Under the pieces are notes generated by a model. That model saw only the letters and a list, made by a program, of their open reading frames with translations, made no database searches and was not told where the DNA came from. 43,717 bases of DNA from assembly GCA_024640825.1 (NCBI GenBank), contig JAHEEG010000014.1, positions 1 through 43,717 on the forward strand, in the 5' to 3' direction. Below are positions 1,849-6,261 of this stretch, piece after piece (position 1 is the first letter of the stretch; every line of letters begins with the position of its first letter). This DNA comes from Gammaproteobacteria bacterium (GTDB taxonomy: Bacteria; Pseudomonadota; Gammaproteobacteria; Pseudomonadales; Azotimanducaceae). The position numbers and the translations under genes are program-made.

Positions 1849-2328
1849 ATGTCTACTTTTCATGATCTCGAAATGAAATCCATCGACGGCGAGCTGGTGA
1901 AGTTTGGCGGCTTTGAGGGCCAGCTCTGTCTGGTGGTAAACGTTGCCAGTCGTTGAGGGCTGACGCCTCAGTACGCAGGTCTGCGTACCATACACGAAAA
2001 CTATTCCGATCGTGGCTTTACGGTGCTGGCGTTCCCCTGCAATCAGTTTGGTGCCCAGGAGCCGGGTACGGACGCGGAGATCCGCGAGTTCGCGGTGGGC
2101 AAGTACGCGGCCAACTTTCCCATGTTCAGCAAGGTGGAGGTAAATGGTCCCGGCGCTTGCCCGCTTTATCAGTACCTCAAAGCCGCGCGGCCTGACGAGG
2201 AGGGCAACGTCAATATTCCCTGGAACTTCACCAAGTTTCTCGTCGATGGTGAAGGAAGAGTTGTGGCGCGTTTTGCGCCCACAGTAACTCCGGAAGAAAT
2301 TGCCGAGACTCTGGAAGCGCTTTGCTGA
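1849..2328 (+). CDS. Glutathione peroxidase, selenocysteine-containing (TGA at 1954-1956 read as Sec)
   Basis: Translation from the ATG at 1849 (ribosome site GGGAGG at 1837-1842) gives a full-length peroxidase of 159 residues if the single internal TGA is read through. That TGA encodes residue 36 in NVASRUGLTPQY, exactly where the family carries its catalytic Cys or Sec. The rest of the catalytic tetrad is present: Gln66 in FPCNQFG and Trp125-Asn126 in PWNFTKFL. The length matches bacterial glutathione peroxidases. A perfect 7-bp stem with loop GGTC starts 14 bases after the TGA, where bacterial SECIS elements sit. The enzyme would reduce peroxides in the cytoplasm using thioredoxin or glutathione. 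Cys64 is the usual conserved FPCNQ cysteine and Cys159 is the last residue. A nonsense-mutated pseudogene is the alternative, but the hairpin and intact downstream frame argue against it. Confidence 0.9.
1971..1988 (+). promoter_or_regulatory. Bacterial SECIS-like stem-loop
   Basis: GTACGCA (1971-1977), loop GGTC (1978-1981) and TGCGTAC (1982-1988) form a perfect 7-bp stem. The apical loop begins 22 bases after the TGA, within the spacing known for bacterial SECIS elements, and has guanines in its first positions. The core GCAGGTCTGC is, from memory, the same as that at the tip of the E. coli fdhF SECIS. SelB would bind it and deliver Sec-tRNA. No selA, selB or selC lies in this window. Confidence 0.8.
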
Positions 2329-2404: not shown

Positions 2405-3244
2405 ATGAGCTGGCTGATTGCCACAGATCTGGATGGAACCCTGCTGGATGACCACTACGACCTGGTCGAGGCCGCCGCCGCCCTGGATAAGCAGGTTGCC
2501 ATGGGCCACGAAATCGCGCTTGCTTCCAGCAAGACCTTCAGCGAGATGCTGCAGTTGTCGGCGCTTTGCAGCCGCTCGCCCACTCTGATTTTTGAGAACG
2601 GCGCCGGGGTCGCGTGGCCCGAGCGGCTGTGGCGTAAGTCCGACGCCGGGCCCGTGCAGGACGGGTTCCGGATTCAGCTGCGCGGCGATGGCTACATGCG
2701 GTTGCGAGCCATGCTTCGCGGCTTGCGGCGAAGCAGCGGAGTGCGCTACCAGGGTTTTGCCGACATGTCCGTTGCCGAAGTTGCCGACCTCACCGGGCTG
2801 TCGATGGCGGGCGCTGCCCTCGCGCGGGAGCGTCAGGCCAGCGAACCGCTGCGCTGGCTGGACAGTCCTGAAGCTCTGCAGCGTTTTGAGCATTCGCTGC
2901 AGCAACGCGGTTATCGCCTCGTACAGGGGGGAAGATTTCACCACGTTATGCCGCGCACCGACAAAGCCTGTGCCGTCTCAGCGCTGGCGCGGCGCCTCGC
3001 CGAAATGCATGCCGCCAGAATCAGAGTGCTCTGCTGCGGTGACAGCGCTAACGACCGGGCCATGCTGCGCGGCGCCGATGTTGCCGTGGTTTTCCCGCGC
3101 CCGGACGGAAGCTTTCTGGTGCTTGATCATGATGGCCCGGCGGGTGATTCTGGCCCGGCGGCTGTGTTTCGCGCAGCGAGCGCTGGTGCCGACGCCTGGT
3201 CGCGGGCTGTGGCCGGTGCCTTGCGTCGATGCAGTTCGGCCTAA
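2405..3244 (+). CDS. Glucosyl/mannosyl-3-phosphoglycerate phosphatase, HAD superfamily
   Basis: A 279-residue HAD phosphatase of the MPGP type. Motif I is DLDGT with the nucleophile Asp8 and acid/base Asp10. The loop ALASSKT near residue 38 corresponds to motif II, and GDSAND at 212-217 is motif IV. The cap region lies between. It would dephosphorylate glucosyl-3-phosphoglycerate (or the mannosyl form) to the free glycosylglycerate in the cytoplasm. The next gene, 37 bp downstream on the same strand, is a glucosyl-3-phosphoglycerate synthase, which favours the glucosyl substrate. The start codon ATG at 2405 has no strong ribosome site, but motif I begins within eight residues, so the N-terminus cannot be much shorter. 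Confidence 0.88.
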   Translation: MSWLIATDLDGTLLDDHYDLVEAAAALDKQVAMGHEIALASSKTFSEMLQLSALCSRSPTLIFENGAGVAWPERLWRKSDAGPVQDGFRIQLRGDGYMRLRAMLRGLRRSSGVRYQGFADMSVAEVADLTGLSMAGAALARERQASEPLRWLDSPEALQRFEHSLQQRGYRLVQGGRFHHVMPRTDKACAVSALARRLAEMHAARIRVLCCGDSANDRAMLRGADVAVVFPRPDGSFLVLDHDGPAGDSGPAAVFRAASAGADAWSRAVAGALRRCSSA

Positions 3245-4535: not shown

Positions 4536-4549
4536 CATTCAGCTGTCAG
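4532..4549. terminator. Stem-loop between convergent genes, possible bidirectional terminator
   Basis: CTGACA and TGTCAG form a perfect 6-bp stem around a 6-base loop, spanning the stop codons of both convergent genes. There is no T-tract on either strand, so intrinsic termination is only a possibility. Confidence 0.3.
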
Positions 4550-6261
4550 CAGCCGACGTCCAGCCACAGCACCTGAAAGGGCTTCAGCGGTAGCAGCGGT
4601 TCCACTTCGATGGTATTTCCGGTCAGAAGATCCATGTAGTTACCCGGCGCCAGGTCGTCTTTCTCCAGCCTCAGGTCCTGCGCGACGCTGGAAAGCGAAG
4701 CGACGACCAGCACCCTCTGACCGGGGGCGCTGCGTTCCAGGGCGAAAGCCGATGCCGGCATATCCAGCACGCGCTGCGGGTATTCGGGAGAGAATGCACG
4801 GATGCTGGCGCGTCGCCTCAGCATATTTTTGAAAGCCGCCATCACGTGGTACTGGGGGGAGTAAGGATCCTCCAAGCTCGCCTGCAGGGCCTGCAGTTCC
4901 CAGCGCCCGCGATTGATAGAGCGGGTTCGCCCCGTCTGCTCTACGCCCAGCAGGTCGTTTTCCGACGCCAGCAGGCTGTGAATGTAGATCGCGGGAATGC
5001 CCTGGAACGCCAGCAGCAGCGCATGTGCTGCAAGGTATCGTGGCAGGTCGTTCAGCGAACCGCCGAAGGCCGAAAACAACGAGATGTTGATTTCGTACGG
5101 CGTCTCGATACCGGGCGACACTTCCCGCAGGGTCACGAAGCCGCCGCGCTCGTGCATGCGCTCTACCAGCGCCTGTACGCGGTCCGCCGGCATGAGTCCT
5201 TCCAGGGGGCGCAGGCCGATGCCGTCGTGGGATGCAATGAAGTTCAGATAGCCGGCGCCGTCCGGCGGCGGATCCAGCGCCCGGGCCCAGGTGGTCAGAT
5301 AGCTGGCGTCCTCGAACACGTAGCTGTAGAGCAGCAGCGGTGCCAGGCTGAACTGGTACACGATGTGGGCTTCGTCTGCGCTGCCGAAATAGCTGACGTT
5401 TTCCTCGTGGGGGACGTTGGTTTCCGAGACCAGGCGTACTTCCTGTCCGGCAATTTCCAGCAGCAGGCGCAGAATCTTAACCACCAGATGTGTCTCGCGC
5501 AGGTGCAGGCAGGTTGTTCCCAGGGTCTTCCACAGATAAGCCACCGCATCCAACCTGATATAGCGGGCGCCGTGCTCGACGTAGCGGAACAGGATGTCGA
5601 CCATTTCCGCCAGAACCTCGGGATTGCTGAAGTCGAGGTCCACCTGGTCTTCGCTGAATGTGGTCCACACCTGCTTTATGCCGCGGTACGTGTGCACGTT
5701 TGTTATGAGCGGGGTGTTGCGCGGGCGGGTGACCTTTGAGACGTCAGCGACCGGGCCAACGGTGATGAAATAGCCGCGCCCGGGTTCGCGGTCGCTGATG
5801 AAATCGGCGAACCAAAGGCTCTCCCGGGAACAGTGGTTGATCACCAGATCTATCATCAATCGGAAGTCGCCTGCCAGACGCTGCACGTCGTCCCAGTCTC
5901 CCAGATCGGAGTCCACGCCGCGGAAATCGATAACGGCAAACCCGTCGTCGGATGACGAGGGAAAAAAGGGCAAAACGTGTACGCTGCTGAAGCCATCCTC
6001 GAGATGCTCGAGGAGAAATTTTCTCAGCGTCTGCAGCGGCGCAACCCCGGGCTCTTTGATGCTGTTGGCATAGCTGATCAGCATGATCTCGCCGGCCGAA
6101 AGGGCGGCCGGGCTGCCAGCGGGTTTCATGTGCCGGGCACGCGCCAGAAGCCGTTCGCCCAGGTCGGCGGCTACAGCCTCGCCGTATAGCTCCGTGAGCA
6201 TCTCACGCAGCCGCGCACGGCTGGTTTGCAGGGCCGCGGAGGTTGGCCTTTGCATGTCCAT
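4546..6261 (-). CDS. Glucosylglycerate phosphorylase, YcjM-like GH13_18
   Basis: A 571-residue GH13 enzyme with the family catalytic triad: nucleophile Asp238 in RYIRLDAV, acid/base Glu280 in LVSETNVPHEEN and transition-state Asp346 in ASHDGIG. The substrate region FPSSSDDGFAVIDF (about 100-113) and INH at 141-143 are typical of subfamily 18. Length and motifs match E. coli YcjM, a glucosylglycerate phosphorylase, better than the roughly 500-residue sucrose phosphorylases. YcjM-type enzymes split 2-O-glucosylglycerate with phosphate to glucose-1-phosphate and glycerate. It converges on a glucosylglycerate synthesis pair with a 10-bp gap, which supports that substrate over sucrose. The start is ATG 6261, with a second ATG at 6255. 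Confidence 0.85.
   Translation of the reverse strand: MDMQRPTSAALQTSRARLREMLTELYGEAVAADLGERLLARARHMKPAGSPAALSAGEIMLISYANSIKEPGVAPLQTLRKFLLEHLEDGFSSVHVLPFFPSSSDDGFAVIDFRGVDSDLGDWDDVQRLAGDFRLMIDLVINHCSRESLWFADFISDREPGRGYFITVGPVADVSKVTRPRNTPLITNVHTYRGIKQVWTTFSEDQVDLDFSNPEVLAEMVDILFRYVEHGARYIRLDAVAYLWKTLGTTCLHLRETHLVVKILRLLLEIAGQEVRLVSETNVPHEENVSYFGSADEAHIVYQFSLAPLLLYSYVFEDASYLTTWARALDPPPDGAGYLNFIASHDGIGLRPLEGLMPADRVQALVERMHERGGFVTLREVSPGIETPYEINISLFSAFGGSLNDLPRYLAAHALLLAFQGIPAIYIHSLLASENDLLGVEQTGRTRSINRGRWELQALQASLEDPYSPQYHVMAAFKNMLRRRASIRAFSPEYPQRVLDMPASAFALERSAPGQRVLVVASLSSVAQDLRLEKDDLAPGNYMDLLTGNTIEVEPLLPLKPFQVLWLDVGC

Follow-up and report, generated by a model that had tools for sequence, protein, structure and literature searches.

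Bacterial glutathione peroxidases (GPx) with selenocysteine (Sec) were already in print by 2005, when a study of the Sargasso Sea described a bacterial Sec-GPx with a SECIS element and reported five Sec sequences (PMC1088965). The Global Ocean Sampling data analysed in 2008 contained 40 Sec and 3,287 Cys forms of GPx (PMC2398784), and a 2026 review gives a GPX-like protein with a UxxT motif as a high-confidence prediction (PMC13188914). A 2023 survey of annotated proteins describes the known bacterial Gpx-like proteins as thioredoxin (TRX)-dependent, with the peroxidatic Cys present in 100% and the resolving Cys in 94% of them, and describes canonical mammalian GPx as enzymes without a resolving Cys (PMC10084747). 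Bacterial GPx carrying both the peroxidatic and the resolving Cys are also reported in a 2021 GPx phylogeny (PMC8614756). In the open-licence text of this literature, figures excluded (including PMC9312934, PMC1242214, PMC1794560 and PMC5029168), we found no mention of bacterial Sec forms going together with the absence of the resolving Cys, which may be in print elsewhere.

The gene described here is a further member of the bacterial Sec-GPx kind, and lies in a stretch of 43,717 nucleotides (the window). It shares with the marine sequences the GPx family, the UxxT motif, the in-frame UGA and a bacterial SECIS element downstream of it; those are metagenome sequences, whereas here a host genome, its Sec machinery and the distribution of the gene across a family could be studied (PMC1088965, PMC2398784). 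The active-site Gln, Trp and Asn and the sequence family are also those of the bacterial TRX-dependent Gpx-like peroxiredoxins, but these have a peroxidatic and a resolving Cys where the window protein has Sec36 and Ala82 (PMC10084747). Mammalian GPX4 (2obi and other PDB entries) is a Sec-type GPx too, and 2obi matched residues 3–152 with 136.3 bits. Unlike mammalian GPX4, the window gene has a bacterial SECIS within its coding region, and its sequence is slightly closer to yeast HYR1 (149.5 bits, E 6.7e-43), which aligned ungapped to residues 1–158 of the read-through protein.

Reading frame and protein family

The features of the locus, all on the forward strand, are as follows.

1837–1844, forward: Shine–Dalgarno-like GGGAGGTG, 4 nt upstream of the ATG (from the sequence)
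1849–2328, forward: gene for a predicted Sec-containing glutathione peroxidase, 159 residues plus the TGA stop (reading frame, PF00255, HYR1 alignment)
1954–1956, forward: in-frame TGA, predicted selenocysteine, peroxidatic residue 36 (67 of 110 loci have TGA and 43 have TGC or TGT)
1971–1988, forward: bacterial SECIS apical hairpin, 7-bp stem, loop GGTC at 1978–1981, 21 nt between the UGA and the loop
2056–2058, forward: Gln70 codon, catalytic tetrad (invariant, 103/103 distinct rows counted)
2092–2094, forward: Ala82 codon, place of the resolving Cys in two-Cys GPx (homologue alignments)
2221–2226, forward: Trp125-Asn126 codons, catalytic tetrad (invariant, 103/103 distinct rows counted)
2326–2328, forward: stop TGA (TGA closes 11 of 12 open frames examined, the GPx gene included)

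A sequence-only reading of this DNA had proposed a frame from ATG 1849 to TGA 2328 interrupted solely by TGA 1954–1956, falling on catalytic residue 36 in the context NVASR-U-GLT. Both points held, and the aligned homologues with Cys have it at this residue. In a profile search, the 159-residue read-through protein matched PF00255 with 138.4 bits (E 8e-41, cut-off 27), and the active-site Sec or Cys, Gln, Trp and Asn of this GPx family were all found, at positions 36, 70, 125 and 126. The same reading was right in assigning Trp125-Asn126, which occurred in every one of the 103 distinct rows scored (63 Sec rows plus 40 Cys rows with C82; the count leaves out 2 others), and was wrong in placing the catalytic Gln at residue 66: Gln70 occurred in 103/103 rows, and the Cys paralogue of the genome has Asp at 66 and keeps Q70. 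This paralogue (G000:C24, L137:857–1462, minus strand) is a GPx homologue 48% identical to the window protein; it differs in carrying Cys36 and Cys82 (EFCSTKFGVQFP) and in having no SECIS hairpin (2/7 pairs).

As anticipated, plain gene calling truncates the gene; the list of open reading frames of at least 60 aa showed just a 101-aa fragment from GTG 2023 in this frame. Sec-GPx genes shortened in this manner may escape surveys of annotated proteins. The frame is under purifying selection before as well as after the in-frame TGA; in comparison with a same-genus copy (L025), dN was 0.07 and dS 0.87 upstream of it, and dN was 0.066 and dS 0.43 downstream.

SECIS hairpin

The constraints given for bacterial SECIS elements in the 2026 review are a loop of 3–9 nt, a stem of 4–16 bp, a G among the first two loop positions and 16–37 nt from the UGA (PMC13188914). 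The hairpin at 1971–1988 (GTACGCA-GGTC-TGCGTAC) satisfies them, with a 4-nt loop starting with GG, a 7-bp stem and a spacing of 21 nt. Among 57 distinct Sec sequences, all seven stem pairs were present in 35 and six in 22, and the 13 additional Sec loci of a second set of 41 loci had six or seven, as compared with a mean of 2.7/7 pairs in 40 Cys homologues with C82. A covariance model of the SECIS searched against the host genome gave 65 bits for the GPx gene, 17.7 bits (E 0.024) for the Cys paralogue and nine matches with E of at least 0.36; it did not recover the other Sec candidates of this genome.

Stem changes on both sides that kept the pair were GC to AU in six rows and CG to UA in one, and they recode the protein at residues 43 and 46 (A43T with R46C; R46H). 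At residue 46 the 63 Sec rows carry Arg, Cys or His, whereas the 40 Cys rows with C82 carry Glu or Gln, so that at this position the amino acid seems to be set by the RNA. The codon of Gln41 was CAG in 67/67 Sec loci vs 11/40 Cys loci with C82. The stem varies so little that formal covariation was modest, and the count of further pair types in the stem was not above that of shuffles. Sliding the pairing by −2 beat the annotated stem on three of five measures (covariation score 0.167 vs 0.100, both-side cells 19 vs 7, further pair types 4 vs 3), while 94.5% of the cells were paired in the annotated stem vs 72.2% after the slide. An Rfam search of positions 1500–2700 returned no family at its gathering score and one chance-level match (E 0.7, 14 bits vs 48). 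A lower hairpin pairing the UGA with 1966–1970, predicted in the window, was rejected: none of its pairs changed on both sides among the 57 Sec sequences, and one particular pair was broken in 33 of them.

Selenocysteine machinery of the host genome

A Sec-containing enzyme had been taken to imply selA, selB, selC and selD in the genome, and all four were found in the host assembly, a draft of 4.09 Mb in 296 contigs that is 96% complete. The genes for SelA (526 bits to TIGR00474 in a profile search), SelB and tRNA-Sec (anticodon tca) are consecutive on contig C199, where selB was matched in two parts around a region with a 38-N assembly run that splits it. Two selD genes scored above the cut-off, at C287:286–1203 and C199:39593–40498. 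The latter sits within an open frame of 722 residues and may be a fusion.

Distribution of the in-frame TGA

To the window protein, 155 genomes of a same-family draw of 200 gave a match, and of the 147 for which a best match was listed, 122 had the TGA in that match and 25 did not. In a class-level draw of 140 genomes (host included), TGA inside the match was found in 0/50 other matching genomes, two of the 50 matches being very weak. The Sec form, which the sequence-only reading had called uncommon, is thus uncommon at class level, though it is the rule within the family. SelA was found in 107/122 of the family genomes with TGA vs 22/25 of those with Cys (p = 1.0), a comparison that is uninformative because SelA is nearly everywhere in the family. 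Of the 15 TGA-bearing genomes in which SelA was not found, 11 are 62–87% complete and four (G041, G087, G103 and G187) are 93–96% complete.

For the alignment of homologues that had been proposed as a check, we used the loci that matched the window protein best, 110 in all (30 from the family draw and 80 from named assemblies). The codon of residue 36 was TGA in 67 loci, TGC in 36 and TGT in 7, that is, 67 TGA and 43 Cys codons. The TGA also occurred in contig L054 from a Pseudomonadales metagenome-assembled genome (MAG), and the TGA-bearing named loci came from assemblies labelled Pseudomonadales, Actinomycetes, Myxococcales, Deltaproteobacteria and Alphaproteobacteria, all of them MAGs in which single labels could be wrong. 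The second set of 41 loci consisted of the Cys paralogue of the genome and 40 loci picked from the family draw (27 Cys-type and 13 low-scoring TGA rows), and contains repeats (L152 with L041 and L059; L163 with L090).

Resolving cysteine and phylogeny

We examined position 82, the alignment column that holds Cys in HYR1. Cys was present there in 0/80 Sec loci vs 83/100 Cys loci, totals that count loci rather than distinct genes in a sample outside which the Sec-GPx of Spirochaetes and Clostridia lie. By set, C82 was found in 0/67 Sec and 40/43 Cys loci of the 110, in 0/13 Sec and 15/28 Cys loci of the 41, and in 28 of a set of 29 loci, all Cys, taken from the class-level search; in the remaining one a Cys stands three positions further on. 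Cys loci that lack C82 thus number 17, with 3, 13 and 1 in the three sets. The window protein has Ala82 where the TRX-dependent two-Cys Gpx-like class has its resolving Cys, and the combination of a Sec codon with no Cys at 82 is that of the one-Sec, GPX4-like type. The absence of C82 from the Sec loci suggests one-Sec chemistry like that of GPX4, which differs from the two-Cys, thioredoxin-dependent picture of bacterial GPx in the literature. Two other residues, Cys27 (1927–1929) and Cys104 (2158–2160), are common in the Sec clade and are both absent in 55/71 Cys loci.

In a quick tree from which columns 36 and 82 were left out, a branch with an SH-aLRT of 99 had all 55 C82 rows on one side, while the 13 distinct Cys rows lacking C82 were placed among 76 Sec rows. 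A second tree of 109 rows, from which the SECIS-coded columns and column 104 were also removed and in which the C82 rows were thinned to 20 of 55, repeated both placements; the 29 class-level loci were left out of the trees. The 13 one-Cys rows needed five Sec-to-Cys changes on the quick tree and six on the more careful 109-row tree, where the starred branches force five and the bootstrap was not settled. Since the AU test made on the quick tree still allows all Sec rows to form one clade (p = 0.25) and the bootstrap was unsettled, the claim is limited to several likely Sec-to-Cys conversions without a return of C82. One row without C82 (L090/L163) kept 5/7 stem pairs and the GGTC loop, and its hairpin looks like a decayed SECIS.

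Interpretation of the in-frame TGA

Frame, protein family, machinery, hairpin and conservation were all observed, and from them we infer Sec insertion itself and peroxidase activity. We are highly confident that the UGA at 1954–1956 is decoded as Sec and that the product is a glutathione peroxidase of the monomer type. A pseudogene, or a sequencing error giving TGA for the TGC or TGT of an ordinary Cys peroxidase, would be conceivable in a draft of 296 contigs, TGA and TGC being one base apart, but is very improbable. The same codon is TGA in most of the 110 loci and of the family genomes with a listed best match, and in MAGs labelled Actinomycetes, Myxococcales and others, and this recurrence in other assemblies refutes a sequencing error; furthermore, purifying selection persists downstream of the TGA, and the SECIS hairpin accompanies the TGA and is missing from the two-Cys forms. 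A genome-wide reassignment of TGA to another amino acid is less probable still. In-frame TGA codons would be expected from it and no other support for it was found, whereas 11 of the 12 open frames examined close with TGA, so the codon still serves as a stop, and homologues have their catalytic Cys where this frame has its TGA.

With the UGA read as Sec, SelB carrying Sec-tRNA-Sec would act on the SECIS hairpin at 1971–1988 to insert Sec at the UGA. Sec36, positioned by Gln70, Trp125 and Asn126, would then reduce the hydroperoxide and become a selenenic acid, which would in turn be reduced directly, in two steps, by small thiols such as glutathione, as in mammalian GPX4. Direct reduction by small thiols appears the most likely route because Ala82 replaces the resolving Cys of ordinary bacterial GPx, and we somewhat favour glutathione or another low-mass thiol as the reductant. 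A glutathione synthetase gene is present in the host genome (403 bits). A possible but rather doubtful alternative is that the Sec enzyme is recycled by thioredoxin or glutaredoxin through another resolving Cys, such as Cys104 with or without Cys27, and not by glutathione directly. C104 is present in 51/80 Sec loci vs 15/71 Cys loci, together with C27 in 41/80 Sec loci, and 12 of the 13 Cys loci without C82 in the 41-locus set carry it. However, both C104 and C27 are absent from 17/80 Sec loci, so neither Cys is essential.

In a broader proposal, for which we would put the chances at about even, the clade, with members in MAGs labelled Pseudomonadales, Actinomycetota, Myxococcales and others, would be a genuine lineage of one-Sec glutathione peroxidases that parallels animal GPX4, in which the resolving Cys was lost with the gain of Sec and was not regained even in Sec-to-Cys revertants. 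If so, bacteria would have two types of GPx, a thioredoxin-dependent two-Cys type and a glutathione-dependent one-Sec type, both encoded in this genome, and surveys of annotated proteins would overlook the one-Sec type because it is called as truncated. A clade without Cys at the resolving position makes the relation between Sec and the loss of the resolving Cys directly testable in bacteria.

Other selenoprotein candidates and neighbouring genes

The other Sec candidates of the host came from two family searches, and formate dehydrogenase was the sole other selenoprotein family searched. Three genes of the AhpC/TSA family have an in-frame TGA at a redox position and are candidate selenoproteins: C49:38542–38934 (L197), C87:4708–5043 (L198) and C146:8722–9081 (L199), with the contexts SADW-U-PYC, ASW-U-GC and RGHW-U-PYC, respectively. 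A SelW-like gene (PF10262) at C199:56440–56643 (L201), on the contig that also holds selA, selB and selC, has TGA in a CxxU motif (YCSS-U-N). No formate dehydrogenase alpha (TIGR01553) scored above the cut-off in the 96% complete draft, and the three weak matches had no internal stop. For Pseudomonadales, a 2006 survey named no selenoprotein other than formate dehydrogenase (PMC1794560). The host genome showed no Sec formate dehydrogenase in this one family search and several thiol-redox Sec candidates, and here Sec may be retained for thiol-redox enzymes. One further AhpC/TSA-type match, at C224:7892–8188 (L200), has TGA at the redox position plus a TAA and looks broken.

In the window, the neighbours of the GPx gene at 2405–3244 and 4546–6261 encode a HAD-family hydrolase and an alpha-amylase-family protein, respectively, which we presume may belong to glucosylglycerate or mannosylglycerate metabolism.
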